Origin: Actinomyces johnsonii
Lineage (GTDB): Bacteria; Actinomycetota; Actinomycetes; Actinomycetales; Actinomycetaceae
Direction: 5' to 3'
Assembly: GCF_006546835.1 (NCBI RefSeq)
Contig: NZ_VICB01000004.1
Location: forward strand, 62,001 to 126,000
DNA length: 64,000 nucleotides
The position numbers were made by a program, and so were the translations under genes. The notes beneath the pieces were generated by a model. The model was not told the DNA's origin and ran no database searches. It worked only from the letters and a program-made list of their open reading frames with translations. Positions 32,262 through 52,511 of the stretch are shown here, piece by piece; positions within the stretch are counted from its first letter, which is position 1, and the number at the start of each line of letters is the position of its first letter.

Positions 32262-33449
32262 TCAGGCGACGGCCCGGCCGGAGGCCCGTGCGGAGGTGAC
32301 GGTGGCCTGGGCGAGGACCTGATCGCCGTCGGCGCCGCCGTAGACGACCAGGCTCTGACCGGCGGCGACGCCGCGCAGGGGGGTGTTCAGCTCGGCGTTC
32401 AGGAGGCCCGAGGCCTCATCGATGCGGACCTTTGCCGGAACCGGGCGGCCGTGGGCGCGCACCTGGACGCTGGCCTCCTGCCAGCCGACGGCGGGGGAGT
32501 CGTTGGGGGCGGATGCGGCGTTGATGGGCGGGTCGGTGAGCGGCTCGGGCTCGGCCAGCAGGACGAGCCCGTCGCCGTCGACCGTGGTACGGCTGAGCAG
32601 CTCCTCCGGGCCGACGACCACCTCGTTGGTGGCCGGGCGGGTTTCGATGACGTAGCGGGGGCGGCCGTCGTCGGCCGGGCGGGACAGGCCCAGGCCCTTG
32701 CGCTGGCCGACGGTGAAGCCGAAGTAGCCCTGGTGGGTGCCCAGGACCTCGCCGTCGGGCGAGACCATGGCGCCCTCGTGGGCGCCGAGCGAGCGGGTCA
32801 GGAAGCCTCTCGTGTCGCCGTCGGCCACGAAGCAGATGTCGTAGGAGTCCGGCTTGGAGGCCACCGGTAGACCGCGGGCCTCGGCCTCGGCGCGCACCTG
32901 TGCCTTGGAGGGCGCGTCGCCCAGCGGGAAGAGGGCGCGGGCCAGGCCCTCGCGGCCGGAGACCGCCAGCACATAGGACTGGTCCTTGGCGGCGTCGACG
33001 GCGCGGCGCAGGATCAGGCCGGAAGTGTCGCCGGGGCGGCCGGAGGCGGCGCCGCCGCTTAAGCGCGCGTAGTGGCCGGTGGCGACGGCGTCGAAGCCCA
33101 GGGCCAGGGCGCGCTCCAGGAGGGCGTCGAACTTGACGCGCTCGTTGCAACGCACGCAGGGGTTGGGGGTGCGCCCGGCGCGGTACTCGTCGAGGAAGTC
33201 GGCCACGACGCGCTCTTCGAACTCCTCGGACAGGTCCCACACGTAGAAGGGGATACCCAGGATCTGGGCGGCCCAGCGGGCGTCGGCGGAGTCCTCGATG
33301 GAGCAGCAGCCGCGCGATCCCGTACGGGTCTGGGCCCGGTTACGGGTCAGGGCCATGTGGACCCCAACGACCTCATGCCCGGCGTCGACGGCGCGCGCGG
33401 CCGCGACGGCGGAGTCGACTCCGCCGGACAGGGCGGCCAGGACGCGCAC
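32262..33449 (-). CDS. mnmA: tRNA-specific 2-thiouridylase
   Basis: Thiolates U34 of tRNA-Glu, tRNA-Gln and tRNA-Lys with sulfur relayed from a cysteine desulfurase. The PP-loop [14 protein letters not shown] lies near residue 8. The catalytic cysteines are in [13 protein letters not shown] and [11 protein letters not shown], and the C-terminal beta barrel is present ([13 protein letters not shown]). I chose the GTG at 33449 ([13 protein letters not shown]) because AAGGAG lies 6 bases upstream; the frame starts 5 codons earlier at another GTG that lacks this spacing. 395 residues. Its usual partner, cysteine desulfurase, is 15 kb away at 48025-49263, and a scar of mnmA lies near that gene. 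Confidence 0.96.
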
Positions 33450-33670
33450 GAGGGTCTCCTTCACAGCTACGGCTACGGCCGTGGCAGGCTACCGCAGGTC
33501 GACGGCGATGGGGGAACCGGGAGGAACCGGGAGAACACAGACAGCGTTGTGGTGACCGGCATAGGGTGATGGGGGGAAGGGGGTGATGACTGACGAGTAC
33601 GCCGTCGATCCCCGCAGCTCCGCCCGGATGCTGCACGATCAGCGCTGAGATGACGAGGGACTGCCACTGG
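33381..33670. repeat. Left copy of a direct repeat flanking the island (mnmA 5' end plus upstream DNA)
   Basis: Covers the first 23 or so mnmA codons and about 220 bp upstream. It is homologous, in the same orientation, to 47235-47527. Over the first 83 bases (33381-33463 against 47235-47317) I count six mismatches and no gaps; further on there are indels, and then similarity returns at a shared short frame (MTDEYAVDPRS here, 33586-33648). The stretch 33450-33724 contains no other gene. Confidence 0.8.
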
Positions 33671-33724
33671 TTCGGTCGTCCGTGTCAATCGCATTCAAGT
33701 TTGTTTCTTCAAGAAGGAGACGCA

Positions 33725-33841
33725 GTGTTTAATTTATGGTTCGTTCTTTCGATAGCTGTCTTGGTCCTGCTGCCGCTGCTGATCATTCTGATTGTGGTGG
33801 GCGGCCGGAGGCGGTCGATGAAGAAGCGGGAGCGCCGGTAG
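33725..33841 (+). CDS. 38-residue single-span membrane protein
   Basis: Starts at GTG 33725, with AAGGAG 5 bases upstream, which is stronger than for any longer start. One hydrophobic helix of about 22 residues (WFVLSIAVLVLLPLLIILIV) is followed by a very basic cytoplasmic tail (GGRRRSMKKRERR). No family recognised. It stands alone between mnmA, transcribed away from it, and a convergent DUF418 gene. Small proteins of this shape can be regulators of membrane complexes or leaderless peptides; nothing here decides. Confidence 0.6.
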   Translation: MFNLWFVLSIAVLVLLPLLIILIVVGGRRRSMKKRERR

Positions 33842-33888
33842 CCCCCTAGAACCTGAGGACTGCCGGTCGAGCTCACGCATTCGGAGAG

Positions 33889-34920
33889 CTACGCTATCCC
33901 GGCCGTCGTCGGCACGTAGCTGACCGGATCGAGTCGTTTCGATTGCTGGCGCTGCAACGGCACCCACCGCCACCAGGTGACGCACCGCCACGCCCACTCC
34001 AGGGGGCCGTAGGCGAACCGGGAGAGCCAAAGACGGCAGAACACCCATTGGAGGGGCAGAACCGCGGCAGCGACGATGAGACCGGGGATGACGTCGTCGG
34101 TGGAGCGCGAATCGAGCAGCACTCCCGCCGGCACCATGACGAAGGAAGCGGTGACGTAGCAGGTCAGCGCCATGCGGCCCAGGGGCTCGAATACCGCGCT
34201 CAGGGCCCGCCGCACCGGGGTGCGCCAGAGCAGCGCCAGAAGGCAGACATAGAGACAGGCCATGAGTCCTCCGGCGACTCCGCCCGCCGTGAAGAACCTG
34301 GGATCACCGCCCTCGGCGGCCTGCCAGGGGATCGCGGCCGCGCTGGCGGCTGCGAATACGAGCGTCGCCGCCCCGATCCGACGGTCGGCGTGCTCGAGCC
34401 GCGCCGGAAGGCCGTAGGCCTGGGCCGCCGATCCCAGAAGGAACAGCCCGGGCAGCGATAGTGCCCCTCCTCCTGAGAATGCGTAGGCGCCGACCGTCGC
34501 CAGCAGACCGAGTACCAGACGCACGGAGCGCGGGACCTTGAGGGCGAATGGCAGGAGGATGGCTCCCGCAACCGCGTAGTCGCGCAGGATCTCACCGGGA
34601 TAGAGGATCGAGTGGAGTAGCCCGATCACCAGGAGCGCGGCCAGGCGGCGCAGCAGGATCTTCCAGGCGGGGGCGCCCCGGCGGATCGCGGAATCGATGA
34701 CGAACCCCATGCTCATTCCGAACATGAAGGAGAAGATCGGTACGAAGCGGGTCGCCACCAGGAAGTTCAGGACGTTCTCCGCCAACGGGACGGCTTGGAA
34801 GGGCCGGACCGGGACGTCATACCCCAGGTACATGAGATCGGCGGCGTTGACGAGGAGAATGCCTGCGACGGCGAAGCCGCGCAAGGAGTCGAGGAAATGG
34901 AACCGGTTGCTGGTACTCAT
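33889..34920 (-). CDS. DUF418-family membrane protein
   Basis: 343 residues. Opens with FLDSLRGFAVAGILLVNAAD, the DUF418/acyltransferase-3-like start, and has roughly nine or ten membrane spans. The C-terminal DUF418 region shows RMALTCYVTASFV and FAYGPLEWAWRCVTWW. Members of this family are multi-pass inner-membrane proteins of unknown biochemical role, possibly envelope modification. ATG 34920. It is in the same direction as the two-component genes and lies about 115 bp after the response regulator, so it may belong to that transcription unit. Confidence 0.88.
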   Translation of the reverse strand: MSTSNRFHFLDSLRGFAVAGILLVNAADLMYLGYDVPVRPFQAVPLAENVLNFLVATRFVPIFSFMFGMSMGFVIDSAIRRGAPAWKILLRRLAALLVIGLLHSILYPGEILRDYAVAGAILLPFALKVPRSVRLVLGLLATVGAYAFSGGGALSLPGLFLLGSAAQAYGLPARLEHADRRIGAATLVFAAASAAAIPWQAAEGGDPRFFTAGGVAGGLMACLYVCLLALLWRTPVRRALSAVFEPLGRMALTCYVTASFVMVPAGVLLDSRSTDDVIPGLIVAAAVLPLQWVFCRLWLSRFAYGPLEWAWRCVTWWRWVPLQRQQSKRLDPVSYVPTTAGIA

Positions 34921-35035
34921 GGAGCCGACCGTAGAGCCCGACGACGGTCATCGTGACCGGTGGGGGCCAGTTTCCACCCGGGGTTGCAAGGTGTCGGGGC
35001 GATTTCCAACTCGGGGACGCGCAACCGGTGCCGGG

Positions 35036-35737
35036 TTACCCACCCACGCGCACGAGTCCGCTCTCGTAGGCCAGCACAATGAGCTGGGCCCGGTCACGCA
35101 GCTCCAGCTTGTGCAGGATCCGGTTGAGGTGGGACTTGATCGTCGACTCGGCCAGGACCAGGTGCTGGGCGATTTCGGCGTTGCTCATGGCGCGTCCGAC
35201 CAGCGTGACGATCTCCTTCTCCCGATCGGATAGAGCACCGATGGAGTCTTTGTGCACGGTGCCGGCGCCGTGCTCCCAGGGGCCGGCTGGGCCGGCGGTG
35301 GAACCGGCGGGGGTGAACCACCGCTTCAGCAGCCGGCGCGTGGCCGACGGCGCCACCACCGAGTCTCCTCGGGCCACGGCGCGGATACCGGCCAGGAGCT
35401 CGGGCGCCGTCGAGTCCTTGAGCAGGAAGCCCGAGGCCCCGGCCCGCATCGCCGCCACGAGGTAGTCGTCCAGGTCGAAGGTGGTCAGGATGAGCACCTT
35501 CAGGTCGGGGTGGCTGCCCAGAACCGTGTGGGTGGCGGAGATGCCGTCCAAGGTGGGCATCCTGATATCCATGAGGACGATGTCGGGCTGAGTGGCCTTG
35601 ACCATGGGAAGAACACCGACGCCGTCGGAGGCCTGGCCGACCACGCACATGTCCTTCTGGGCATCGAGAATCATGCGGAAGCCGGAACGGACCAGGTCCT
35701 GATCGTCCACCAGCGCAATGCGCAGAGTTCGGGTCAT
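35036..35737 (-). CDS. NarL/LuxR-type response regulator
   Basis: 233 residues. Receiver domain: ALVDDQDLVRSGF acidic pocket, phospho-acceptor Asp in DIVLMDIRMPTLDG, Thr in LILTTFDLDDYL, Lys in GFLLKDSTAPE. C-terminal LuxR helix-turn-helix: LSDREKEIVTLVGRAMSNAE and STIKSHLNRILHKLEL. The ATG at 35737 overlaps the kinase stop (ATGA). Pairs with the kinase upstream. Possible targets are its own operon, DUF418 or the divergent cas operon; none is shown by sequence. Confidence 0.95.
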   Translation of the reverse strand: MTRTLRIALVDDQDLVRSGFRMILDAQKDMCVVGQASDGVGVLPMVKATQPDIVLMDIRMPTLDGISATHTVLGSHPDLKVLILTTFDLDDYLVAAMRAGASGFLLKDSTAPELLAGIRAVARGDSVVAPSATRRLLKRWFTPAGSTAGPAGPWEHGAGTVHKDSIGALSDREKEIVTLVGRAMSNAEIAQHLVLAESTIKSHLNRILHKLELRDRAQLIVLAYESGLVRVGG

Positions 35738-37116
35738 ATCGGTTTTCCTCCTGGGTTCACGACTGTCGACTGAGGGGCCTCGGAGGGAATGCGGGCGCGC
35801 ACGATGAATCCTCCCCCGGGGCCCGGGCCCGCCTCCAGGGAGCCGCCGACCGCCGCCAGGCGTTGGCGCAGGTTCACCAGTCCCTGGCCCCCGCCGGTAT
35901 CCGCGGGCTTCTGCTGGGACGACGGGAGGCGGCCGCCGGCCCTCGGGGCAGGCGCCCCGGTGCCGGGAGCGCTGGGCTGATCGGCGACGGTCAGAACGAC
36001 CTCCTTGTGAGCCTCGTCGTCACGGTACTCCAGCCTCACCTCGACCGCGGCCGCCTCGGCGTGCTTGAGCACGTTGGTCAGAGACTCCTGCGTCGTTCGG
36101 TACAGGGCGAGCTCCGCCTGCGCGCTGAGCGGACTGCGGCCTCCTGTCTGCTCGCCCTCACTGATCAGCCGGTCGTCCACTGACAGGGTGACCGGCAGCC
36201 CGGTCGCACGGACGTCGTCGACGATCCTGGGTAGATCGGCGATCCTCGGGACCGGACGCAGCGGCGTCTCGGTGACAGGGGAGGCGGGCCGGGCATCGTC
36301 GGGCTCAGCGGGTTCTGCGGCGCTCCGGTGCTCTTCCGATTGCGGGGGAGAGGCCAGAGTGCGGGTCAGGCTGCGGGTGTCGGCCAGGGCCGAGTGCGCG
36401 GTCGCCCGGATCTGCCCGAGCGCCTGAGCCGCCTGCTCCAGTCGCTCGTCGGCGGGGAGGTCGATGTCCTCGGAGCCGGCCGCCAGGTAGTGGCCCGCCT
36501 CGGCCTGCACGGCGATCAGCGCCAGGGCGTGTCCGACGACGTCGTGAACCTCCCTGGCAATCTCGTTGCGCAGCGCGGCGTCGTGCGCAGCCCGGCGCTG
36601 CTCCTCCGCCGTCAGGCGGCTGGCCCGCAGCTGGCGGCGCTGCGTCACGAATCTTCCCAGGCCCCAGGCGATGGCGGCGCTGCACAGCTGTGCGAAGGCG
36701 GCCTGCGCCATGTCCTGGGCCCAGAGGGAGGGCGGGACGATTCCCAGCTCATCCCGGTTCCAGTCCCACGCCCCCAGCGTTGAGCCGACGACGACGGCTA
36801 TGGCCCACATCGGCGTGAACCCCCGTTCGCCCCACCGGCCTACCGCGTACAGGGACACGACGATCGTCAGATCCGCGGGCAGCGGGGCATCGGTGACGCC
36901 GAGCTGGAGTGCGCACAGCACAAGATGGACGCCGAGGACGGCGTCGGGCTGCTCTCGGCGCCACCGCAGCACGATGACTGCCAGCGCGGCGCCAGCCGTG
37001 ATGCCCCAGGAGCCGTCAGAGACCTGCCATGTGCCCACGATCGCGAAGAGCGTGAGAACGCCGGCGCCCACGGCTCGCACGCAGCGGGTCACGATGCGTC
37101 TGATCTGCTTGGGCAT
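35734..37116 (-). CDS. Sensor histidine kinase (HisKA_3 type)
   Basis: About 460 residues from ATG 37116 (MPKQIRRIVTRCVRAVGAG). The frame is open to 37272, but that extension would overlap the csb1 start. Five or six N-terminal membrane spans (DesK-like, no large outer loop), then dimerisation helix with the phospho-His in EIAREVHDVVGHALALI, and a HATPase_c domain with LTNVLKHAEAAAVEV and GGGQGLVNLRQRLAAVGG. It is coupled to the response regulator. The signal is unknown; membrane-embedded sensing is likely. Its promoter region (37117-37262) is shared with the divergent cas operon. Confidence 0.93.
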   Translation of the reverse strand: MPKQIRRIVTRCVRAVGAGVLTLFAIVGTWQVSDGSWGITAGAALAVIVLRWRREQPDAVLGVHLVLCALQLGVTDAPLPADLTIVVSLYAVGRWGERGFTPMWAIAVVVGSTLGAWDWNRDELGIVPPSLWAQDMAQAAFAQLCSAAIAWGLGRFVTQRRQLRASRLTAEEQRRAAHDAALRNEIAREVHDVVGHALALIAVQAEAGHYLAAGSEDIDLPADERLEQAAQALGQIRATAHSALADTRSLTRTLASPPQSEEHRSAAEPAEPDDARPASPVTETPLRPVPRIADLPRIVDDVRATGLPVTLSVDDRLISEGEQTGGRSPLSAQAELALYRTTQESLTNVLKHAEAAAVEVRLEYRDDEAHKEVVLTVADQPSAPGTGAPAPRAGGRLPSSQQKPADTGGGQGLVNLRQRLAAVGGSLEAGPGPGGGFIVRARIPSEAPQSTVVNPGGKPI

Positions 37117-37262
37117 GCCCTCACTATGGCAGAGAGTTTCGGGCGATAACAGCGTTTCGCCGCCGGAGTCAACCCGCAATATCGTCGCGTCACATGTGTC
37201 GTAGGTCAGGTGTAGATATGAGGATGTAAGCCGATCGGCCAACTCAATGAGGAGTGATTCGT

Positions 37263-38462
37263 ATGTCAACAATCAGTCTTCCGCACCTGCTCGATGCCTG
37301 CCGCCCGGGCGGCGCCAGCGTCCTGACCTCGGTCACCCCCTTGGAGCCCGCTGCGGGCCCCCATGCTTCGGTGGCTCCGGCGAAGTTCCTCGAGGGAAAA
37401 GGGAGAACCGCCAAGCCGGTATTCGCCTATGAACGGCGCTTCTGGGATGGGGAGGCCGTCACCGCCGTCCTCATCGACTCCAAACAGTCCCAGAGCAACC
37501 GGCTCGAGGCCGCCGTGTCAGCGGCCATCGCGGACCAGGATCCCGTGCTGGCCCGCACCCCGCGCATTGAGCTGCGCTTTGAGGACGGCCAGGTATACAG
37601 CGACATCGACCTCCCCCACCGGGCCTTCGACGGGCAGATCCGAGCAGGCACCATCAACGGAGAGCCCGCAACCGCGGCCCAGGAGTACCGGGAGCTGCGG
37701 AACGCCACCGTGGCCGATGCGCGCCCGCTGCTGGAGCGCAGCCCCATCACGCTCCTACTTGGCGGCTGGGACGCCAGCCGTAAGACCCATGCAGGTCGTT
37801 ATCGCAGCCTCCTCGTCGGCGAGATCATCGGCATCCTCTCCGATCAGGGCAGAGATCCGGAGGTGAACCAGTCCAAGCGCGGAGGTGCGCGAATTGATCC
37901 ATTAGGGGCGAGAATCCAGCTCGATCAGGCAGAGCGCGAAGCTATCGCGGACGTCCAGAAGTCCGAGTTGTCGGACAAGGCCTACACGAACTCCTATGGA
38001 AAAGACGGAAAGTCGTCGTCCCTGGGGCTCGGCGGCATTCCGCCGTCGCTAGAGCAGCTCGGTGGTGTCACCTGCCGGGCCATCATCCGCTCCCATGTGC
38101 TCAGCTTCGCCGCGCTTCGCGCCCTGCGCTTCGACAGCCCGACGCCGGAGGGAAACGTCGCCTGCCGAGCGCTGTTGGCCGCGCTCGCCCTCAACGGCCT
38201 GGCCCGTTCCGACGCCGAGCTCCTCCTACGGGCCAACTGCGACCTGGTGGAGGCCGGCCCCGCAGTCGTCACCCTGGACAAGCGCTACGGGCAGAAGGAG
38301 AACTTCGAGCCGTTGAGCATCGAGCAGGCGCAGGAACTGCTGAGCGCCGCCATCGATAACGCCGTACAGGCGGCGAACTTGACCTGGGACGGCTCGATCC
38401 TCGTCGTCGAGGGGAACCCGACGATTCTTGCCGCTGCCGCCGACGACGCGCAGGACGACTGA
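37263..38462 (+). CDS. csb1: Type I-G Cas7 (Csb1)
   Basis: 399 residues; ATG 37263 with GAGGAG upstream. The backbone subunit that coats crRNA in the surveillance complex. Csb1/GSU0053 hallmarks: VLIDSKQSQSNRLEAAV near residue 75 and LLLGGWDASRKTHAGRYRS near residue 160. First gene of the operon; its stop overlaps csb2 (TGATG). The promoter should lie in the 146 bp shared with the histidine kinase. Confidence 0.92.
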   Translation: MSTISLPHLLDACRPGGASVLTSVTPLEPAAGPHASVAPAKFLEGKGRTAKPVFAYERRFWDGEAVTAVLIDSKQSQSNRLEAAVSAAIADQDPVLARTPRIELRFEDGQVYSDIDLPHRAFDGQIRAGTINGEPATAAQEYRELRNATVADARPLLERSPITLLLGGWDASRKTHAGRYRSLLVGEIIGILSDQGRDPEVNQSKRGGARIDPLGARIQLDQAEREAIADVQKSELSDKAYTNSYGKDGKSSSLGLGGIPPSLEQLGGVTCRAIIRSHVLSFAALRALRFDSPTPEGNVACRALLAALALNGLARSDAELLLRANCDLVEAGPAVVTLDKRYGQKENFEPLSIEQAQELLSAAIDNAVQAANLTWDGSILVVEGNPTILAAAADDAQDD

Positions 38463-40012
38463 TGGCCCCCGTCAGCATCACTGCGTACTTTCCCCTCGGC
38501 GTTTACCACGGACACGCACCGGACGGCAGTCCCGAACCGATCCCCTCACCGGCTCGGTTGTTCGCCGCCCTGGTGAGTGTTGCTCACACCGGGACCACGG
38601 CGAAACCTGATGGCCAGGCGGCTCCCGATATGGATGAGGTGCTGACCTGGTTGGAAGAGCACCCTCCCAACGGCCTGCATATCCCGAGCATGATCCGAGT
38701 CCAGTCAGACAACAGGATCATCTACCGGAAAACCGGCACGATCGAGAAGGCTCGCCCCAAGACCGCCGCCAAGGCGATCTCCGACGGTTACGCGGCCAAT
38801 GGGGCGATCGGCTGGCTCTGGGATGACATGCCAGACGATGTCCGTCACGCTCTCGCTCGACTGTGCGAGGACGTGCCGTGCCTGGGGGAGATGGACAGTC
38901 CCGTGGTCATGAGTACCGAACCAGTCGAGGCGAACTGGCGACTCGACCCTGCCGCAACCGCTTTCACACCGGGAGGTCTGCGCCTACGGGTAGCCGCACC
39001 AGGAAGAACCGGTGTGCTCCGCGAGCTGTATTCCCAGTCCCGGCCTCTCAAACCTTCGAGTGCATCCGCAGACGCGTTCCACTCCACGGGAGATTCCGTC
39101 AGAACATTCCCGACCTCCGAGGAGTGCCTGCGGACGGTTAGGTACGAGGCTGTGAAACCTGTTAACAACGATGAGTCGCCTTGGGGCGATGTCCTGGTCT
39201 TCTCCGCCGCTGATGGGACCGAGCGAGCTTTCTCTGCGGAACGCCGATTGGGTTGGTGCGTCGCCTTCCACAAGGCACTCATTAAACGCATTGGTGAGGG
39301 AGCTCCTCCAGTCGTCACTGGGCACTACCAACGGGATCTGGCGGCTCCCGCCAACCACCTGGCCATCCAGTACGTTCCCGCCTCCGTTCTTGCCCAGTCG
39401 ACGCTCAAAGCGGCATCCGGTGCTCCAGGCGCCTTCCTTGTCATGCTGCCCTCCGACATCGGCGATGACGACCGGGCCGTCATCTGGAGAGCCTTGATCG
39501 GAATGACCCAGGTGCGCTCCCGTTGGGCCGAGGCCCGTCTGCACCGGCTGGGGGAGGTCGTCGATGCGAGGACGTTCTGGCGCCCACCCGCTGATGGGAC
39601 CCGACGCTTGTGGTCCCCGACGCCGGTGGCGGTGCCGGAGGTGACCCGCCAGCGAGGGAAGTGGACCTTCGAGGATGCGATCCTCCTGTCCCTGGGATTC
39701 GTGTGGCGCGATCACCTCGAAGCCGTGCCCAAAGGCACCCAGGGCTACCGCTCGTTGGCCGCCCAGGTACGTGAGCATGGGGCTGGAGCGATGTGGTACC
39801 ACCGCATCACGAGGAACCCGAGCTCCTACGCCCATAAGATGCAGCGTGGCATGACCGCCCAGCCCTACACCGCACTCCTCAGCGCCGGGGACCTCCTGGC
39901 GGACACTGAACTGGCCGCCGTAGGGCAGAGCCGGCACCTGGGTGGGGGCCTGCTGGTACCGGCAGACCTGCCTGCCGAGCTGGCGCAGAGCGTAGTCGGG
40001 AGGTGGCCGTGA
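38462..40012 (+). CDS. csb2: Type I-G Cas5-Cas6 fusion (Csb2)
   Basis: 516 residues. The N-terminal Cas5-like RAMP part starts VSITAYFPLGVYHGH, and SPARLFAALVSVAH follows. The C-terminal Cas6-like part ends with the glycine-rich loop VGQSRHLGGGLLVP. In I-G systems this one protein both caps the crRNA 5' end and processes the precursor. His residues in KGTQGYRSL to MWYHRITRN may take part in cleavage, but I cannot assign the site. Coupled to csb1 and cas3 by overlapping codons. Confidence 0.9.
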   Translation: MAPVSITAYFPLGVYHGHAPDGSPEPIPSPARLFAALVSVAHTGTTAKPDGQAAPDMDEVLTWLEEHPPNGLHIPSMIRVQSDNRIIYRKTGTIEKARPKTAAKAISDGYAANGAIGWLWDDMPDDVRHALARLCEDVPCLGEMDSPVVMSTEPVEANWRLDPAATAFTPGGLRLRVAAPGRTGVLRELYSQSRPLKPSSASADAFHSTGDSVRTFPTSEECLRTVRYEAVKPVNNDESPWGDVLVFSAADGTERAFSAERRLGWCVAFHKALIKRIGEGAPPVVTGHYQRDLAAPANHLAIQYVPASVLAQSTLKAASGAPGAFLVMLPSDIGDDDRAVIWRALIGMTQVRSRWAEARLHRLGEVVDARTFWRPPADGTRRLWSPTPVAVPEVTRQRGKWTFEDAILLSLGFVWRDHLEAVPKGTQGYRSLAAQVREHGAGAMWYHRITRNPSSYAHKMQRGMTAQPYTALLSAGDLLADTELAAVGQSRHLGGGLLVPADLPAELAQSVVGRWP

Positions 40013-42696
40013 TCGCCATCGAGGACTTCGGAGACTTCTTCGAAGCGGTTCACGGTGCCGGGAGGCGGCCCTTCGCCTGGCAGGAGGATCTGCTGAGGCG
40101 CCTGGTTGACACCGGGACCTGGCCCGAGCAGATCATCGCGCCGACCGGCGCCGGCAAGTCATCGGTCGTGGAGATACACGTCTTCGCCGTGGCACTGTTC
40201 GCGGTCGGCGCCGCGCAGAGCCTGCCCCGAAGGCTGGCCGTGGTGGTCAACCGCAGGGCGCTGACCGACTCCCATGCCGTACACGCAGAGAGGATTCGGC
40301 GCCTTCTGGACGAGGCCCCCGTGGACGACTCGGTCCTCGGGCGGGTCCGGGACGCCCTGGTCGGACTGCGTGCGCCCGACGCCGATGACAGGACCCCGCT
40401 GGTCACCGCCACGATGCGGGGAGCGGCGGCCACCGACCGAGCTTGGCTCAACGCCCCGGAGGCCTGCGCGGTGCTGTGCATGACACCGGCGATGTGGGCG
40501 TCGAGCCTGCTGTTCCGCTCCTACGGGGCCTCCCGGCTTGCACGCCCCAGGCTGGCGGGGATGCTGGCGCTCGATGCCGCCGTGGTGGTCGATGAGGCGC
40601 ACCTGAGCCGCCAGATCCTCGTGACTGCCCGGAGGGTGGGGCAGCTGTGCGCCCGGAGCGCGCAGCAGCTGGGAGTCACGGCGCTCCAGACCGTGGAGAT
40701 GACGGCAACGCCCTCAGGCGATGCGACGGACGTCGTCGGCGTCACCCGGGACACCCTGGCAACCGACCCACGGTTGGCCTCCCGCATGCGGGCCGCGAAA
40801 TCCGCTCGTTATATGGAGACGGCCGTGTGGCCCGCCAATAAGAGGATGACCAGGGCCTATCGCGAGGAGATCATTTCGCAGGTGCATGCGGCTGTTGAGG
40901 ACGCTCGCGAGCTCGTCCCCGACGGCCCCCGGACGGTGGGCTGCGTTCTCAACCGCGTGGATAGCGCGGTTCAGGTTGCGCGGGCTCTCCACCAGGAGGG
41001 GCTGAACTGCCGACTGTGGGTGGGGCGCATGCGCCCCTGGGATCTGAAACGTTCGAGACAGGACGAACCGGGGCTCTTCGATACGGCGGGAGCGCGGGGC
41101 GTCGACGTCCTCGTGGCGACCCAGACCATCGAGGTCGGGGTCGATCTGGACCTGGTCCACATGGTGACTGAACTCGCCTCCGGCAGTGCCCTGGCTCAGC
41201 GCGCCGGCCGCGTTAACCGACTGGGGCTGCGCGAGCGAGCGTGGTTCACCGTCGTCGGCCCTCCGGGGGAGGCCCCGTTGGGAAAGGACGTACTCCCGTA
41301 CCGGAAGGATGACCTACTCGCCGGTCGCACATGGATTCTGGGCCGTGCCGACGACGGCGACCTGTCTCCTCTGACGATCGGTGAGAAGCCCAAGGCACCG
41401 CCCGCGGAGTCTGCTCGCCGCCTGCTGTACCAGAGGCCTGAACCCTGGGATGCGGTCCTGTGGTCGAAGACGTCCATGAAGCTCGTCATCGAACCGGAGC
41501 TCGACCTGTGGATCCGCGACGACCTTGACCCTGAGGCCGGAACGGTGGGTCTCGTCCTGCGGGATCTGAAGGACCTGCCCGATGCGACGGCGTGCGAGAC
41601 CCTGGTGACCGAGGTACCTCCGCAGGACCTTGAGGTCTATCCCATGACCATGGCCACCGCTCAGAAGACGGTTCAACGCCTGGGGGAGGATACGGACTTC
41701 TCGTTGGAGCGGTCGGTGCTGTGGCGAGACGGGGCGATCCTGCCCCAGTGGCAGGCGACTGTCTTCGAGGATGAGGATGGGGGGAAGAGCGCATCTCGTG
41801 TGCTTCGCCCCGGCGACCTCCTCATCCTGGACGCCTCCGCGCCGCTTCTGACCTCCGGCGTTGTCACAGACGATGGTGAGGAACTGGGGATGCCGGTGCC
41901 CTGCGAGGAGCTCGACGGGGTGGCTGGCGTCGTCACCGACCCCGATGAATTGCGTGGGCTGGCTGCTCTGGAATCGGATGAGCTGTGTGATCTGTTCCCG
42001 GGGGAGACAGTGGTGTGGCCTCCGGGCCGGGATGAGGTGGACGGGCCCACATGGATGGTTCGGCGTAGCAGCGTGACGCCGGATGACGAGTCCGACGACC
42101 GTTCCGCCTGGTCCGTCAGTCGCCGGGTACTCCTCGCGGATCACAACGCTGCGGTCGCCGCCCGCGCGGGGGCGCTGGCCGATGGCATCGGCATCGAGCC
42201 GAAGCCTGCAGCGGCCCTGAGCGAGGCCGGTGCCTGGCACGACGTCGGCAAGAACGATGCCCGTTTCCAGCGGCTTCTGTGGCGAGGCGATCCTGCTGGC
42301 AGGGAGGCGCTTGCCAAGAGCGGGGGCCGCAGCACGCCGCTGGGGGCCGTGCGGCGGGCCCGGGCGGATGCCGGGCTGCCAACGGGATGGCGCCATGAGC
42401 TGGCCTCCGCAGCCGCCTACTGGGAGCAGGCAGAGTCCGACGGCGTTGGGCAGGAGTTCCGGGATTTGGTCACGAGGCTGGTGGGTACCAGTCATGGTCA
42501 CGGCAGGCCCTTGTTCGACCACGACCCGGTCACTGCGGGCCCTGACCATGCCGATGCTTTGGAGGAGCTGGTGGGCGAAGGTGAGTGGGAGTCGCTGATC
42601 GCCCGCACTGACAGGCAGTGGGGCCCTTGGGGGACCGCCTACCTCGAGGCACTGCTGCGCGCCGCTGACTGCACAATCTCCATGGAAGGGAAGTGA
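40009..42696 (+). CDS. cas3: Cas3 helicase-nuclease with C-terminal HD domain
   Basis: 895 residues from GTG 40009, overlapping the csb2 stop (GTGA) with GGGAGG upstream. The helicase part comes first: IIAPTGAGKSSVVE (Walker A), AAVVVDEAHLSRQ (DEAH), VEMTATPSG (motif III), ATQTIEVGVDLDLVHM and ALAQRAGRVNRLG (motifs V-VI). The HD nuclease follows at the C-terminus: ADHNAAVAARAG, then SEAGAWHDVGKNDARFQ. Helicase-then-HD order is diagnostic for type I-G; in most other type I systems HD is N-terminal. It unwinds and degrades the displaced strand. Confidence 0.95.
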   Translation: MIAIEDFGDFFEAVHGAGRRPFAWQEDLLRRLVDTGTWPEQIIAPTGAGKSSVVEIHVFAVALFAVGAAQSLPRRLAVVVNRRALTDSHAVHAERIRRLLDEAPVDDSVLGRVRDALVGLRAPDADDRTPLVTATMRGAAATDRAWLNAPEACAVLCMTPAMWASSLLFRSYGASRLARPRLAGMLALDAAVVVDEAHLSRQILVTARRVGQLCARSAQQLGVTALQTVEMTATPSGDATDVVGVTRDTLATDPRLASRMRAAKSARYMETAVWPANKRMTRAYREEIISQVHAAVEDARELVPDGPRTVGCVLNRVDSAVQVARALHQEGLNCRLWVGRMRPWDLKRSRQDEPGLFDTAGARGVDVLVATQTIEVGVDLDLVHMVTELASGSALAQRAGRVNRLGLRERAWFTVVGPPGEAPLGKDVLPYRKDDLLAGRTWILGRADDGDLSPLTIGEKPKAPPAESARRLLYQRPEPWDAVLWSKTSMKLVIEPELDLWIRDDLDPEAGTVGLVLRDLKDLPDATACETLVTEVPPQDLEVYPMTMATAQKTVQRLGEDTDFSLERSVLWRDGAILPQWQATVFEDEDGGKSASRVLRPGDLLILDASAPLLTSGVVTDDGEELGMPVPCEELDGVAGVVTDPDELRGLAALESDELCDLFPGETVVWPPGRDEVDGPTWMVRRSSVTPDDESDDRSAWSVSRRVLLADHNAAVAARAGALADGIGIEPKPAAALSEAGAWHDVGKNDARFQRLLWRGDPAGREALAKSGGRSTPLGAVRRARADAGLPTGWRHELASAAAYWEQAESDGVGQEFRDLVTRLVGTSHGHGRPLFDHDPVTAGPDHADALEELVGEGEWESLIARTDRQWGPWGTAYLEALLRAADCTISMEGK

Positions 42697-43712
42697 TGGG
42701 GATGATTCTTGGCGGAGAGATCACCAGTGCGCTGACAACCTTCGCGGGGCTCGGGCTCGCGCTCATCCTGGAAGGTGACGGAGCCGAGCAGGTCCGGCTC
42801 GGCTGGACCGACGCCGTCGAGCCCCGGATGGTTGTCACCGCCGACGGCTACGACGATGAGGCTGTTGCGACTGCCGTATATCAGCATGCTCTTTCTCTTG
42901 CCGACTCAGAAAGTTGGCCGCAGATTAATCTAGATCGTAAGCCATGGGTGAACAACAAGGGAAAAATGACGAGTGCCGCTATGAGTCCGTGTATTGCTCC
43001 TCCGAATCGGGAAGAGGAATGGGAGTATCTTGACGACTTGCGTAATAAGATTATCGATCGTTGCTTGTTCGGGAATGAAAGTGGGGTAAATCTCGAACTG
43101 ATTGGAGCTCTTGGTAGGCCGGCGTACTGGTGTGATAAGAAGGGAAACTCAAGCCCCGATCTGGGGGCGAGTCGTTATGATATGGAGGTTCGCAGAAGTG
43201 GTAGGAATCTCGTTCATGAGAAGATTGCGCCTCTGGCGTGCTTTATAGCTGAGCGTAGTGTGGAGGAGATTTCTGCGGGGCTTTGTGGCGTGCGTATTAA
43301 TAGGAGAAAGGTTGGAGGAAAAGGGAGGCCGCGGGACTCTGCTGGCCTGACCCCGCCTGGGTGTGTGGACTCTTCTTTAGTGTGGGCTGCTTTGTGGGGT
43401 ATATCTTCGTTTCCTGTGGTGCATCGCGTCAATCGATGCTCGGTATCTGCGGGTGCTATCCCGTCCGGTGAGCGCGAGCCTCTAAATGTTGTTGTTCCAG
43501 CCGTTGTCGGCGGGTACTCTCTGCATCGATGGAGGGCGCTGATTGTTTCCAGTCAACTAGCCTGCTGGCAGGATCGTGAGGAGAGCTCTTTGGGGTGGCT
43601 GCGTCGGCATGGAGTGAGGGCGGTCATTGTGTTTAATGTGAATGTTATTCGTCTTCGTGCCCCATCGCCAGACGAGTTTTATCTAGGTGCGGGTGATGTG
43701 TGTCCAATTTAA
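42696..43712 (+). CDS. csb3: Csb3-like / Cas8-position protein of the type I-G operon (mosaic, possibly truncated)
   Basis: 338 residues, coupled to cas3 by TGATG. Begins MGMILGGEITSALTTFAGLG. By position between cas3 and cas4-1, and by its length, I take it as the Csb3/GSU0052-type or Cas3-extension subunit that stands in for Cas8; there is no Csx17. Identity rests on context. The first 55 or so codons are GC-rich like the neighbours; from about 42860 to 43730 GC drops sharply and codons such as ATA, AGA and TTA appear. The frame ends at TAA 43710-43712, but the same frame continues for 48 codons to a TGA that overlaps the cas4-1 start, so the stop may be a nonsense mutation. PAM recognition would be its expected job. 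Confidence 0.7.
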   Translation: MGMILGGEITSALTTFAGLGLALILEGDGAEQVRLGWTDAVEPRMVVTADGYDDEAVATAVYQHALSLADSESWPQINLDRKPWVNNKGKMTSAAMSPCIAPPNREEEWEYLDDLRNKIIDRCLFGNESGVNLELIGALGRPAYWCDKKGNSSPDLGASRYDMEVRRSGRNLVHEKIAPLACFIAERSVEEISAGLCGVRINRRKVGGKGRPRDSAGLTPPGCVDSSLVWAALWGISSFPVVHRVNRCSVSAGAIPSGEREPLNVVVPAVVGGYSLHRWRALIVSSQLACWQDREESSLGWLRRHGVRAVIVFNVNVIRLRAPSPDEFYLGAGDVCPI

Positions 43713-45762
<2,050 letters not shown>

Positions 45763-45938
45763 CGCGAGCGCTCCGGTGCTCGGAGAACCTCGGGCAGCGC
45801 TCGCAACGATAAAACGTTGGAACGGCAGGGATTAGGTGGACTGAGCTGAAGACAGATACGGCTTAGTCCAAGCCCTCGCACGGAGCGCTCGCGAAGTGGC
45901 CTCAGATGGGCTTGGTGGCAGGCTATACTAAGCGGACC
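45763..45938 (+). promoter_or_regulatory. CRISPR leader with inverted repeats
   Basis: The 176 bp between cas2 and the first repeat. Arms 45763-45775 (CGCGAGCGCTCCG) and 45881-45893 are exact reverse complements. The 9-bp core GCGAGCGCT occurs inverted again at 45796-45804, so the first two copies can form a hairpin right after cas2 (possible operon terminator). The leader assignment rests on adjacency to cas2 and on the degenerate repeat being at the far end. GGCTATACTAAG at 45921-45932, just before repeat 1, could be a -10 region. Confidence 0.65.
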
Positions 45939-47117
45939 GTTGCAGTTCCTTCGGGAGCTGCACTTCATTGAGGCTTTCCTTAGTTCCACGGCCGAGTCCC
46001 CGAGGGCGGGTTGCAGTTCCTTCGGGAGCTGCACTTCATTGAGGCTTGTGACAGGTGATCCTCATGTTTCCCTCTCTCTCAGGGGTTGCAGTTCCTTCGG
46101 GAGCTGCACTTCATTGAGGCCAGGCCGGGATCAGCGACTTCGCGTTGGAGTAGATGTTGCAGTTCCTTCGGGAGCTGCACTTCATTGAGGCCCTTCGTCG
46201 TCACCAGCCACAGCACGCCAGCCTCGTTGCAGTTCCTTCGGGAGCTGCACTTCATTGAGGCTCGGCATTACCTTCAAGCCGCGTCTGGGGCGTATCGTTG
46301 CAGTTCCTTCGGGAGCTGCACTTCATTGAGGCATGGTGGTGTTGTTGCGATGATGGTAATCCCAGAGTTGCAGTTCCTTCGGGAGCTGCACTTCATTGAG
46401 GCTCGGCAAATGCAACCTGTGAGACAATCACCGAGAGTTGCAGTTCCTTCGGGAACTGCACTTCATTGAGGCTCAGAGCGTCTGCTGATGCGCCATTCTG
46501 GGACGTGTTGCAGTTCCTTCGGGAACTGCACTTCATTGAGGCAACGCCGTCAAGTCGCGGCTGGGAACGAAGACATAGTTGCAGTTCCTTCGGGAACTGC
46601 ACTTCATTGAGACGGTTGGTTCCGTGTGGTGATCTGGTAGGTGGCCGTGTTGCAGTTCCTTCGGGAGCTGCACTTCATTGAGGCCCTTCGTCGTCACCAG
46701 CCACAGCACGCCAGCCTCGTTGCAGTTCCTTCGGGAGCTGCACTTCATTGAGGCTCCTGCCGCTTCTTGTCCACAACGATAACTCGCCGGTTGCAGTTCC
46801 TTCGGGAGCTGCACTTCATTGAGGCGAGAGGGGTAGGAGCCCGGCGGCAGGCGCCAGGCCCACCCGTTGCAGTTCCTTCGGGAGCTGCACTTCATTGAGG
46901 CTGCTCAAAGGAGTGCCGCCAGGCCTGGATAACCGAGTTGCAGTTCCTTCGGGAGCTGCACTTCATTGAGGCGGGGTCGACCTCCTGGACCTGTGGCGCG
47001 GCACGCTGGTTGCAGTTCCTTCGGGAGCTGCACTTCATTGAGGCACCGGCGACAACCAGATGGTCTCCGCCGACAGCGAGGGTTGCAGTTCCTTCGGGAG
47101 CTGCACTTCATTGAGAC
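45939..47117 (+). CRISPR. CRISPR array, 17 repeats of 36 nt and 16 spacers
   Basis: Repeats start at 45939, 46010, 46085, 46156, 46226, 46297, 46367, 46437, 46507, 46578, 46649, 46719, 46790, 46866, 46937, 47009 and 47082. Each is 36 nt, beginning GTTGCAG and ending CATTGAGGC. It contains a hairpin with 8-nt arms GCAGTTCC and GGAGCTGC around the loop TTCG. Spacers are 34-40 nt, mostly 34-35. Repeats 8, 9 and 10 have A instead of G in the right arm (GGAACTGC). Repeats 10 and 17 end GAGAC instead of GAGGC. Spacers 4 (46192-46225) and 11 (46685-46718) are identical. Repeat 17 is the leader-distal end. Confidence 0.98.
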
Positions 47118-47161
47118 AGGCGGGAATTGAGATGTCTATTTCGGCTTTCGATTCCCGCCTG
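47117..47161. terminator. Inverted repeat at the end of the array
   Basis: Arms 47117-47127 (CAGGCGGGAAT) and 47151-47161 are perfect reverse complements with a 23-base loop. It starts in the last base of the last repeat. It could terminate the pre-crRNA on the plus strand, or the scar gene on the minus strand. Confidence 0.5.
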
Positions 47162-47303
47162 CCGCCTCATGTGTCACCCGACAGGTGCGCCCGGCCCCCT
47201 CCAGGGCACTGGGCAAGGCGGTGAACAACCGGTCGGCGTCGACGGCGCTCGCGGCCGCGACGGCGGAGTCGACTCCGCCAGACAGGGAGGCCAAGACGTG
47301 CAC
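47136..47303 (-). pseudogene. In-frame chimera: MnmA N-terminus fused to a cysteine desulfurase C-terminus
   Basis: A 55-codon open frame from GTG 47303 to TAG 47136. Residues 1-23 are the MnmA start ([17 protein letters not shown], against [17 protein letters not shown] in the real gene), and the AAGGAG site upstream is preserved. From residue 24 it matches the end of cysteine desulfurase: RLFTALPSALEG and later THEAAGG, against RLLSALPAALEG and THKTAGE in the gene at 48025. It has lost the catalytic parts of both enzymes. It could still be translated, but it is best read as a rearrangement scar. Confidence 0.8.
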
Positions 47304-47527
47304 GAGGATCTCCTTCAGGCAGACGGGTGACCGTCACTACGACTGTGGCAGGCAACCGCAGGGCGACCGCGACGGGGCAACCGGAAGAATCCAGGGGACC
47401 TTGCTGTGATCGGCACAGGACGGCGCTGAGGAAGGAACTGTCATGATCGACGAGTACGCCATTGACGCCCGCAGCTTCTCCCAGACCCGGCACGATCAGC
47501 GTCGAGATGATGAAGGACTACCACCGG
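47235..47527. repeat. Right copy of the direct repeat flanking the island
   Basis: Homologous to 33381-33670 in the same orientation, with the left edge at the chimera junction. It comprises the mnmA 5' end and its upstream DNA. Divergence is low in the coding part and higher with indels upstream, so the two copies have evolved separately for some time or came from different strains. Confidence 0.8.
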
Positions 47528-47535
47528 ATTCTTAA
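47443..47535 (+). other. Short open frame conserved in both repeat copies
   Basis: 30 codons from ATG 47443 (MIDEYAIDARSFSQTRHDQR, then RDDEGLPPDS) with GGAAGGA 8 bases upstream. The left copy has MTDEYAVDPRS at 33586-33648, ending early at TGA. Similar amino acids are kept, yet the upstream DNA has diverged. It may be the 5' remnant of a gene once divergent from mnmA, or a tiny gene. The remainder of 47304-47623 shows nothing else. Confidence 0.3.
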
Positions 47536-47623
47536 ACGGGGGACCGCCGATGCGAGGCGGCCGTCCTTCGCCGGCGGGGACTGCAAACGCGTTCCCAACG
47601 TGGTGGGAGCACGTGAAACGGGC

Positions 47624-47989
47624 TCATTGAGCGGCGAACTCGTGGCCTGCGCGAATGAGGTCCCTGAGCCAGCCGCTCTCCGCTGCCTCCATCGTCTTGA
47701 CGACGACGTGGTGATTCCACCTGTTCGTGCTGACCTGGTCGACGCGGTGGAAGTGCGGATCCTCCATGGAGCGGTTGAGCCTCACGTTCAGGAACAGGGT
47801 GCCGTCGGTCGTCTTCTCATAGGCCCAGACCCATAGGAACTTCCGGTTGACGGAGAAGCTCACCTGGGCCGTCAGGTGCTTCGTGACGGCGCCAAGCGAC
47901 ATGACATAGGACTCGATTGCGGTGTACATGGCGGCCGATGCCGGCTTGCCGCTGAAGTCGCCGATCATCTTGTTCGAGGCGGTTGGCAT
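47624..47989 (-). CDS. DUF5655 domain protein
   Basis: 121 residues from ATG 47989, with GAGGAG 7 bases upstream; a longer frame to 48064 would run over the end of the desulfurase gene. Matches the DUF5655 pattern: FSGKPASAAMYTAIESYVM, then VTKHLTAQVSFSVNRKFLW and NRWNHHVVVKTMEAAE. Soluble, no catalytic motif known. Sits immediately downstream of the cysteine desulfurase on the same strand (36 bp), occupying the place where mnmA would be expected. Confidence 0.8.
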   Translation of the reverse strand: MPTASNKMIGDFSGKPASAAMYTAIESYVMSLGAVTKHLTAQVSFSVNRKFLWVWAYEKTTDGTLFLNVRLNRSMEDPHFHRVDQVSTNRWNHHVVVKTMEAAESGWLRDLIRAGHEFAAQ

Positions 47990-48024
47990 GCGATTCTCCT
48001 CGGCACTTGTTGACTTGGATACGG

Positions 48025-49263
48025 TTAAAAGTGTTCCCCTGCCGTCTTGTGTGTTGCCTTCCAAGCGCGCCTGGCCCCCTCTAGGGCGGCGGGCAGAGCG
48101 GAGAGCAGGCGCTCGACGTCGTCGGGACTCGTCTCCCGGCCCAGGGAGCAGCGCAGCGTGGAGCGGGCCGGTCCCTCCTCGAAGCCCATCGCCAGCATCA
48201 CATGGCTTGGCTGAGCGACCCCGGCGTGACAGGCTGATCCCGCCGATGCATCAATACCCGCCATATCCAGAGCCATGAGCAGCGCCTCGGCCTGCGCATC
48301 CTCGAACCACAGGTGGGCGGTCGAGGGCAGGTGAGCAACCCCCGCAGGGAGCGTGACATGCACACCATCCAGGGCAGCGACCGCCCGCAGGAGCCTGTCC
48401 CGCAGCGCTCCCAGGCGCGCGGCCTCAGCCTCGCGCTCGCCCACCGCCAGCTCCACGGCCAGTGCCAGGGCCCGGGCCCCCACGACATCCTGCGTGCCCG
48501 AGCGGATGCCCCGTTCCTGGCCGCCCCCGCCCGTCACCGGCCTCAGCTCCAGATCGCGGCGAACCACCAGGGCCCCCACCCCTACCGGCGCGCCCAGTTT
48601 GTGGCCGCTCAGGCTCATGACATCCAGCCCCCACCCGTGGAAGTCCACGGCCGTCTTACCCAGGGCCGCCACGACGTCGGAGTGCACCGGCACGTATCCG
48701 GGCCGCCCGGGGCGCTCGACCCCCGTGGCGCGGCGCACCTCGCCGACCACCGCAGCCATGTCCTGGACCACCCCGGTCTCATTATTGGCCGCCATGACCG
48801 ACACCAGGCTCACCGGCGCAGCAGAATCCTGATCCGAGGGTGCGAGCGCAGCGGCCACAGACCCGAGGACCACTCGACCGGCGCCGTCGACCTCCAGCAC
48901 GCTCACATCCGCACCCAGCTGCTCGGCGGCGGTGCGCGCGGATTCCAGCACCGCTGGATGCTCGATGGGGGAGACCACCAATCGCCCGCCGGGCACGGCG
49001 CGCGCCCGGCCGGCGATCACCAGCGCGCTGGCCTCAGTGCCGCCGGAGGTCAGGACCACCTCATGGGCGTTGACCCCGAGGGCCTGGGCGATCCTGGCGC
49101 GTGCCTGGGCCAGTAGACCCGCGACCCGCCGGCCTGAGGCGTGCTGGGAGCTGGGATTGGCCCACCCGCCCAGCCCCTCGGCCAGATCCTGTGCCATCTG
49201 CTCGGCCACCTGGGGGCGGATAGGGCTGGAGGCGGCGTGATCGAGGTAGGCGCGCGCGGGCAT
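48025..49263 (-). CDS. Cysteine desulfurase
   Basis: 412 residues; ATG 49263 with GGAGG nearby. PLP enzyme that moves sulfur from cysteine to a protein persulfide, in actinobacteria commonly the donor for MnmA. Motifs: MPARAYLDHAASSPIRPQV start, VVLTSGGTEASALVI, MAANNETGVVQDM, PLP-lysine in MSLSGHKLGAPVGVG, and the active Cys in SAGSACHAGVAQPSHVM (short-loop NifS/class II-like spacing not certain). Its C-terminus (RLLSALPAALEG) recurs in the chimeric scar at 47136-47303. It is probably separated from mnmA by the island. Confidence 0.94.
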   Translation of the reverse strand: MPARAYLDHAASSPIRPQVAEQMAQDLAEGLGGWANPSSQHASGRRVAGLLAQARARIAQALGVNAHEVVLTSGGTEASALVIAGRARAVPGGRLVVSPIEHPAVLESARTAAEQLGADVSVLEVDGAGRVVLGSVAAALAPSDQDSAAPVSLVSVMAANNETGVVQDMAAVVGEVRRATGVERPGRPGYVPVHSDVVAALGKTAVDFHGWGLDVMSLSGHKLGAPVGVGALVVRRDLELRPVTGGGGQERGIRSGTQDVVGARALALAVELAVGEREAEAARLGALRDRLLRAVAALDGVHVTLPAGVAHLPSTAHLWFEDAQAEALLMALDMAGIDASAGSACHAGVAQPSHVMLAMGFEEGPARSTLRCSLGRETSPDDVERLLSALPAALEGARRAWKATHKTAGEHF

Positions 49264-49419
49264 GCCTCCACCCTAGTTGCACATCTTCGGATCGGGGCCA
49301 ACGGGATCATACGGACAACTCGGGGATGGCCGGCCAGAACCCACCTGGAGATGCGCTGCGGGGCAGGGGCGGGCCATTAGGGTGGACGGGCTGGAGTAGG
49401 GCGCCGAGCGCGGGGAGGC
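49264..49419. other. Upstream region of cysteine desulfurase
   Basis: Holds the desulfurase promoter on the minus strand. I see no intact gene; plus-strand codon bias towards the right end merges with the remnant that follows. Confidence 0.4.
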
Positions 49420-49579
49420 GGACCTGCACAATCCTGACCAGAAGGTGGCCTCCTTCGTCCTTCCGGGCATCTCCCGGCCAGAGGGATTCATCGCCGCCCG
49501 CGAGGCGGGTGCCCTCATCATGCTCGGGGCGGGCGAGAGCCGGTCCTTCACTGTGACCACGGGACTTAAGGAGAACTGA
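49420..49579 (+). pseudogene. C-terminal remnant, possibly of an aldose 1-epimerase-like gene
   Basis: The frame ending TGA 49577-49579 reads ASFVLPGISRPEGF, then AREAGALIMLGAGESRSFTV and TTGLKEN. The GAGESRSF ending resembles the closing beta strand of galactose-mutarotase-like sugar epimerases. There is no start or core domain in the 160 bp upstream. Its stop is one base from the ribokinase start, and AAGGAG inside it serves as that gene's ribosome binding site, so it was probably the upstream gene of the same sugar operon. Confidence 0.45.
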
Positions 49580-49580
49580 C

Positions 49581-50549: not shown

Positions 50550-50704
50550 GCCCTCCACGATGCTCCCCGCATGAAGGGCCAGCGCAGGACATCTGCACCC
50601 GCCCGCAGCGCGACCGGGCCCACTGCTGGGAGTCGATGCTCTTCCCCTATTCCGTATAGGTGTGCCTATGTGCGCTCCTCTTCTCCGGGTGGGAGAGTGA
50701 GGCC

Positions 50705-51820: not shown

Positions 51821-51878
51821 CGTCGGCCGAATAGCGATTGTTGATGCTTGGGGGCGTGGTGAGCGGGAGTAGAAAGGG

Positions 51879-52322
51879 ATGGCCGTACCGATGAGGGCGA
51901 GGAGATGGGTCTTGCTGGCCGGTGCCGTCTTGCTGGCCGGTGCCGCGGGGGCGGTGGCGGTGTTGGTCTTTTGGTTGTGGGGGTGGTTTACGGTGGAGCC
52001 GGCTGTGTTGCGTGATGGGGAGACTCGGACTTCGGCGTCGGGGCGGTACACCTCGGAGTTTTTCGCGGAGGAGATCGACGGGAAGCGCAATGTGTACCCG
52101 GTGATCAAGAATGCGGCGGGTGAGGTGGTGTGGGCAGACGATCGGCGTTATCTCATGAGTGCGCATTCGGTGGGGGTGGTGTGGCAGGAGGACGCCGACG
52201 TGTTGTGGCTGCTGTCCAAAGATATTGGTTCGTCGTGCGTGGTGGAGAAGGATGGGGTGTGGGTCAAGGATTGGAACTGGAGCGCACTACCTTCCGATAT
52301 CGAGAAGATCGAGAAGGGCTAA
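51879..52322 (+). CDS. Membrane-anchored protein of unknown function
   Basis: 147 residues. An N-terminal signal anchor (RRWVLLAGAVLLAGAAGAVA, extended by a Trp-rich stretch) is followed by an exported domain of about 110 residues rich in Trp, Asp and Val (GEVVWADDRRYLM, VVWQEDADVLWLLSKDIG). Start may be ATG 51879 or 51891. No family recognised; codon use is less biased than in nudC or uvrD2, hinting at recent arrival. The 189 bp that follow it, to uvrD2, contain a short dyad CCCTTAAGGG and no gene. Confidence 0.65.
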   Translation: MAVPMRARRWVLLAGAVLLAGAAGAVAVLVFWLWGWFTVEPAVLRDGETRTSASGRYTSEFFAEEIDGKRNVYPVIKNAAGEVVWADDRRYLMSAHSVGVVWQEDADVLWLLSKDIGSSCVVEKDGVWVKDWNWSALPSDIEKIEKG

Positions 52323-52511
52323 TAATGAAAGAGGACTTATTCACAGGATGAGATAGGTGGTTGCTGGCCTGGGTAAACGCAGATGACTGGTATGTTCGTG
52401 AATAACCCTTAAGGGGTTGAACCAGTTGAATCCACCCGGCATCGGTCGGTTTCCATCGCGTCGGCTCACTGCCACTGATTCTCGTCACCGACCCGTGGCA
52501 GGCTGGTCCCG

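Follow-up and report, generated by a model that had tools for sequence, protein, structure and literature searches.

The window analysed here is a stretch of 64,000 nt from contig NZ_VICB01000004.1 of Actinomyces johnsonii, whose genome is a draft of 42 contigs, and it contains a type I-G CRISPR-Cas (clustered regularly interspaced short palindromic repeats and associated proteins) locus lying between two core genes, the cysteine desulfurase gene des (48025-49263, minus strand; SspA/DndA desulfurase models) on the left and mnmA (32262-33464, minus strand; Pfam tRNA_Me_trans) on the right. As the initial annotation had reported, the 5' end of mnmA occurs twice in the same orientation: positions 33380-33463 and 47234-47317 are direct copies of 84 nt with six differences, 13.85 kb apart. 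The second copy, hereafter the scar, holds the first ~27 codons of mnmA (47235-47317, minus strand), and the likeness of the two continues upstream to 33670 and 47527 in a gapped alignment that includes an 88-nt piece at 78%. A search for MnmA in 49 Actinomyces genomes (given below by our labels) returned from the window genome the intact gene and one further short match (residues 1-39, E 1.5e-5); since this is the only second short match there, the duplicate is beyond chance. A separate second MnmA N-terminus was found in none of the other genomes searched, the extra matches in G004, G014, G028 and G034 being fragments of one split gene. Scar and intact mnmA start have in common a codon, GCG, that is missing from all 12 relatives aligned. 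The 5' copy of mnmA is probably debris with no function of its own.

Directly inside the scar, positions 47158-47234 (minus strand) are a copy of the 3' end of des, covering its last ~25 codons. The two pieces meet at a seam (47222-47236) at which mnmA and des agree in register at 10 of 12 bases, the longest exact run being 5, and the fusion of mnmA codons 1-27 to the des C-terminus is an in-frame open frame of 55 codons (47136-47303, minus strand). A database search with the 55-residue chimaera returned six proteins at E 0.01 or better. Three of them (P0001-P0003) span the whole chimaera, are 84-95% identical to it and have the same residues fused; P0002 (jgi; contig of 5.5 kb) and P0003 (ena) come from independent contigs with the same seam at 84-85% identity, and P0001 was not counted as independent because it is possibly the window's own record, though its sequence is not identical. 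P0004 keeps the seam residues after an internal loss, P0006 is frameshifted after the seam and P0005 covers the desulfurase side only. The seam is real, recurs in other public contigs and is not an assembly artefact. Between the second des end and the CRISPR array lies a hairpin, a putative terminator (47120-47165; fold z -3.3 in the window, -3.8 to -6.6 in G021, G001 and G035). In these three relatives the array likewise starts about 45 bp past des with the hairpin between, and the order of des end, hairpin and array at the scar matches theirs at about 75% identity.

Upstream of both mnmA starts lies a remnant of a fic gene, recognized by its DNA similarity to the fic gene of G022, which is intact (Pfam PF02661 in the G022 protein). 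The remnant beside the scar joins fic bases 1-62 to 275-401 (47443-47625, plus strand) and that beside the intact mnmA joins bases 1-60 to 275-306 (33586-33670, plus strand), so that both are without fic bases ~61-274, the same internal deletion. Among the relatives, fic is intact in G001, G021 and G022 and has other gaps in G017, G019, G020, G030, G039 and G040, and the DNA search for fic gave no match in G003, G035 and G045. The G022 gene (L023:10205-10948) is intact and divergent and stands just upstream of mnmA; near-identical starts are present in G001 and G021. Beside the scar-side fic remnant is a DUF5655 gene (X146; 47624-48064, minus strand; Pfam PF18899). In DNA it is 92% identical to its counterparts in G040 and G017, genomes whose locus consists of des-X146-mnmA alone. 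On the other side, a 24-base remnant of the same gene (33865-33888, minus strand) persists as a 100% match inside an X146 fragment of G021, next to the DUF418 gene. Since a DUF5655 trace and a fic remnant both accompany the intact mnmA, the gene order there is the same as at the scar: des end, DUF5655, fic, mnmA. The shared fic deletion, together with a codon found only in these two among the aligned sequences, points to a single lineage for the mnmA side of both copies.

Between the copies lies a block in which positions 37254-45762 and the array that follows are, as judged from sequence, a complete type I-G (formerly I-U) CRISPR-Cas gene set in one locus. On the plus strand it comprises cas7g (csb1; 37254-38462; Pfam PF09617, PADLOC Cas7g), cas5/6g (csb2; 38462-40012; PADLOC Cas56g, E 2e-185), cas3g (40003-42696; PADLOC Cas3g, E 4e-255), cas8g (42693-43712; PADLOC Cas8g), a cas4-cas1 fusion (43856-45463; PADLOC Cas1g, Pfam Cas_Cas1 and Cas_Cas4), cas2 (45463-45762; PADLOC Cas2g, Pfam PF09827), a probable array leader (45763-45938; 77% identity with the corresponding interval in G021), and the array itself (45939-47117). 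Towards mnmA, on the minus strand, follow a sensor histidine kinase (35734-37272; Pfam HisKA_3), a LuxR-type response regulator (35036-35737; Pfam Response_reg, GerE) and a DUF418 protein (33889-34920; Pfam PF04235), which in DNA are 96.1%, 97.6% and 98.1% identical to G021, the kinase being 96% identical also to G001. Neither an integrase nor a transposase of its own, as an integrative mobile element would carry, was found among the nine block proteins scanned, small frames lying outside that scan.

The nearest clade comprises 12 relatives and the window, and its alleles between des and mnmA fall into three kinds. Five of the 12 (G003, G017, G019, G020 and G040) have des-DUF5655-mnmA without the block, which bears out the earlier view that the block sits between usual neighbours and supplies the empty sites whose lack in every relative would have spoken against it. 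Four (G022, G030, G039 and G045) have the kinase, regulator and DUF418 genes without CRISPR. The remaining three carry CRISPR alleles: G021 has type I-G together with kinase, regulator and DUF418, and so does G001, with an incomplete cas4-cas1 and no cas2 match, each in one contig; in G035, whose contig is broken, cas2 and a portion of cas4-cas1 stand next to des. Neither G021 nor G001, which carry the same block at the same place, has a second mnmA start, and what can be seen of G035 in its fragmented contigs is consistent with this. What bounds the block itself on the outside is the 3' end of the desulfurase gene, followed after ~45 bp by the array; the mnmA piece is part of another copy of the locus, an empty one, that lies in front of it. 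Because CRISPR alleles without a scar exist in G021 and G001, with the array starting just after des, the scar is not the block's mark of entry, and the proposal that the mnmA copies bound the block as traces of its arrival is not supported.

The interval between des and mnmA is a hypervariable site in Actinomyces, hosting differing contents across species. We took the gap as the distance between the des and mnmA matches, which gave 41 Actinomyces loci in one piece; left out of the 49 genomes were G028 (82% complete, locus not included), G033 (genes 107 kb apart) and six genomes with the genes on different contigs (G005, G006, G009, G013, G018 and G035). The gaps range from 30 to 19,329 bp with a median of 1,964, measuring at most 500 bp in 11 of the 41 loci, more than 1 kb in 29 and more than 3 kb in 18. 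By comparison, 85 of the 91 same-contig pairs listed for other genera of the family are at most 200 bp apart (G103 was excluded for its partial des match, with 429 bp between matches); the exceptions among the pairs listed are G089 (747 bp) and five genomes of g26, a related genus group (1.3-18 kb). The same core pair thus encloses many different contents in Actinomyces and stands close together in other genera, as in a hotspot flanked by core genes. Four large g26 gaps (L175-L178, 10-18 kb) share one gene set, partly resembling the response regulator, and no Cas8e or Cas3g match was seen in g26 at E 1e-30. Over all loci compared, the contents form 29 cargo clusters of at least two members, plus singletons. 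They include phosphotransferase system and alpha-amylase genes (G010, and G041 by similarity), DUF6301 repeats (G026), DUF6318 (G011) and DDE_3 transposases (G032, G045). The gap of G047 (L048:2021-7453) holds a 1810-residue M26-peptidase-like protein.

Two CRISPR subtypes occupy this site. Type I-G is present in 6 of the 49 genomes, between des and mnmA in G000, G001, G015, G021 and G042 and beside des in G035; its Cas4-Cas1/Cas3g type was found in 11 Actinomyces genomes, with a further 79-residue cas1 piece in G003. Type I-E is at the site in 7 of the 49, in the gap of G008, G016, G029 and G031 and beside des in G006, G009 and G033, where mnmA lies on another contig (G006, G009) or far away (G033). 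The I-E assignment derives from a gene-by-gene scan of G031, which also has a long array, from Cas3 in G006, G009 and G033 and from similarity in G008, G016 and G029. Not counted is G013, in which an I-E set with the same orientation lies some 8 kb upstream of mnmA. The two subtypes are oppositely placed, in that the I-G array and the I-E cas3 face des. The close Cas8e type occurs in 27 of the 49 genomes, and any Cas8e match in 29. If the 38 systems were spread evenly over an assumed ~2,500 gene intervals, far fewer than one would be expected at the site, although shared descent makes the effective number of independent site occupancies much smaller than 13. On a Cas8e tree of 27 rows, which omits the distant matches in G003 and G014 and the second match in G048, the label 'at des' requires six changes, at least three of them forced by strong branches; several I-E entries, or fewer entries with losses, both fit this tree. 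G000 (contig 4, 243851-245476; L143, L174) has in addition a type I-E Cas8e elsewhere on that contig, so genes of two subtypes coexist in this genome.

Identity varies along the flanks and within the block. In the 5' two thirds of des (~49175-48500), 150-bp windows are 0.85-0.95 identical to G003 against 0.67-0.86 to the others, and below ~48450 G003 no longer stands out. An import of the whole left side from a G003-like strain was rejected, since the likeness is limited to that part of des and the DUF5655 gene is not G003-like. Within the block, part of cas5/6 is 96-99% identical to G021 and the other alignable cas windows 80-89%. The cas8g allele diverges strongly after its first ~65 codons: its protein is 48-51% identical to those of G021 and G001, with only 197 bp alignable in DNA, against 75-95% for the neighbouring cas proteins. 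Since copies at 98% identity exist in databases (P0007, P0008), the window cas8g reads as an allele in circulation, and its divergence as the modular exchange of a single subunit. The identities of the kinase, regulator and DUF418 genes to G021 exceed those of mnmA (90.6%) and of a UvrD-like gene close by (94%), the latter being 91-94% identical in 11 of the 12 relatives and 86% in G003; the difference lends mild support to a recent exchange of the block. In the mnmA of G022 and G040 identity shifts along the gene, and sliding identity along the window mnmA, compared without a parental strain, gave no clear switch point. The des mosaic, the patchy cas5/6 identity and the cas8g allele together point to repeated recombination.

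The sequence shows the locus two times in a row, first an empty copy and then a filled one that meets it at the seam, and we consider it probable that this tandem arose within a recombining hypervariable site. The empty copy runs from des through DUF5655 and the fic remnant to mnmA codons 1-27, and the filled copy from the ~25 last des codons through hairpin, array, type I-G cas genes, two-component system, DUF418, DUF5655 trace and fic remnant to mnmA, the seam itself being probably an illegitimate join at the imperfect 12-base microhomology. This comes close to the early guess that the locus had been duplicated and then rebuilt. One route, for which the chances come near to even, is an unequal one-step join of two alleles of the same lineage, one empty and one filled; the other, a serious contender that we would still place below even, is a tandem duplication of the stretch from des end to mnmA start, after which the block entered or left one copy. 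With mosaic flanks and no recombinase in the block, we infer that the contents of the site probably change hands through homologous recombination within the genes on either side.

Several observations weigh against this account. The scar side is most like the genomes with empty alleles (84% to G017), the block side is 96-98% identical to G021, and the upstream spacers of the two locus copies differ by ~22%, so the copies would not be recent twins but long apart, and later recombination must be assumed to explain both the differing spacers and the different nearest relatives. The fic deletion is flanked by near-identical nine-base repeats, so the same deletion could have arisen twice. When the labels on the Cas8e tree were shuffled, the mean was 6.3 changes and 261 of 500 shuffles were as low as the observed six, so the label changes are no different from shuffled ones and repeated I-E entry is not proven. 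Finally, the other side of des also varies (49264-52511 in the window), with the distance from des to the UvrD-like gene running from ~1.4 kb in G019 to 11 kb in G017, and the des-mnmA interval need not be special.

A join to DNA from another species, by homology-facilitated illegitimate recombination with normal pairing at one end and microhomology at the other, is a rival account. The seam, with 10 of 12 bases in agreement and an exact run of 5, fits the sizes published for joins of this kind (mostly 3-10 bp; PMC3240628), each side is closest to other relatives than its partner, and the kinase, regulator and DUF418 genes are closer to G021 than are mnmA and the UvrD-like gene. Yet two foreign parents would not be expected to have in common a fic deletion and a codon that the aligned relatives lack, and the reported inserts average about 1 kb and such joins are rare, against a filled copy of ~14 kb. 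The shared deletion moved the odds from such a foreign join towards a same-lineage join or a duplication, and we regard the former as unlikely. That the block is an element inserted at mnmA with target duplication would fit both the direct copies that flank it and the existence of empty sites, but G021 and G001 have the block without an mnmA duplicate, the scar also holds the des 3' end, after DUF5655 and fic, and the nine scanned proteins include no integrase or transposase; the presence of the block without a scar in those two relatives led us to reject this explanation, which we hold to be very improbable.

A draft in 42 contigs with two locus copies side by side might also be thought a chimaera of two strains produced in assembly. 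Its seam would then have formed on an exact run of 5 bases, which is too short for assemblers to join on; contamination is 0.27%, the genome has one des and one full mnmA, and the same seam is found at 84-85% identity in P0002 and P0003. This recurrence in independent contigs is why an artefact was rejected, and we give it next to no credence. The 55-codon chimeric frame, for its part, is open in the window and in P0001-P0003, as a selected small gene or regulatory leader would be, but it is frameshifted after the seam in P0006, has an internal cut in P0004, and carries substitutions in its mnmA part that alter residues, all of which makes selection on it highly doubtful.

The site has counterparts in the literature. 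Integrase-free hotspots between core genes are known (Oliveira et al. 2017, PMC5635113), and the des-mnmA site resembles them in its variable cargo between conserved genes, its signs of flank recombination and the lack of a mobility gene in the window block. It differs in that those were studied within species, whereas here the variation is seen between species of a single genus and a seam has been preserved, and transposases occur in the alleles of some relatives. As in the core defence hotspots of Pseudomonas aeruginosa (PMC10250203), immune systems lie between fixed core genes, but the core pair is another and the cargo includes clearly non-defence genes; the defence cargo recognized here is CRISPR-Cas of two subtypes, most other cargo falling outside the defence-library scan. 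The transfer of cas genes in Escherichia (PMC2886076) likewise involves repeated arrival of CRISPR-Cas at one place, with flank recombination proposed, but there beside an existing array and here as I-G and I-E systems between core genes in opposite orientations. Homology-facilitated illegitimate recombination has been proposed for type VI secretion system immunity arrays of Vibrio (PMC3240628, PMC5361080), where, as here, a microhomology join leaves remnants of the displaced allele; unlike those cases, no homologous partner end was found here, and the fic deletion points to a partner from the same lineage. In the open-licence literature we found no paper combining Actinomyces, CRISPR and trmU and, judged by titles and abstract openings, none about this site among those on mnmA, CRISPR and hotspots; the accessible part of a paper on two Actinomyces genomes (PMC10696680) mentions neither mnmA nor trmU.

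The site is ordinary in kind, core-gene hotspots being already known, and unusually legible in detail. Its readable seam shows how a complete CRISPR-Cas locus may come and go between housekeeping genes with no integrase seen, and it offers a concrete place at which CRISPR systems of two subtypes take turns within a genus to which common oral species belong. More tentatively, and as a suggestion that we would ourselves put at less than even, des-mnmA may be a place in the Actinomyces genome where adaptive immune systems preferentially settle, where subtypes with their spacer memory are replaced by flank recombination, immune memory crosses species without a mobile element and seams record imperfect swaps.

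Two minor features of the block may be added. A small open frame of 38 codons with a hydrophobic stretch (33725-33841, plus strand; from its translation a candidate only) lies within positions 33671-33870, a stretch with no match in the other Actinomyces des-mnmA stretches compared. The array has, by repeat analysis, 17 repeats of 36 nt and 16 spacers on the plus strand. Repeat 10 (46578-46613) ends in the same variant (GAGAC) as repeat 17, the final one (47082-47117), and spacers 4 and 11 are identical; because of these two features the array looks like two fused arrays or a partial duplication. Allowing up to 9 mismatches, the spacers gave no hit in the rest of the window, nor, allowing up to 6, in eight scanned stretches from other I-G loci, and comparison of the array with phages gave one weak match of 30 bases (E 0.03), to the Streptomyces phage Success (two records).

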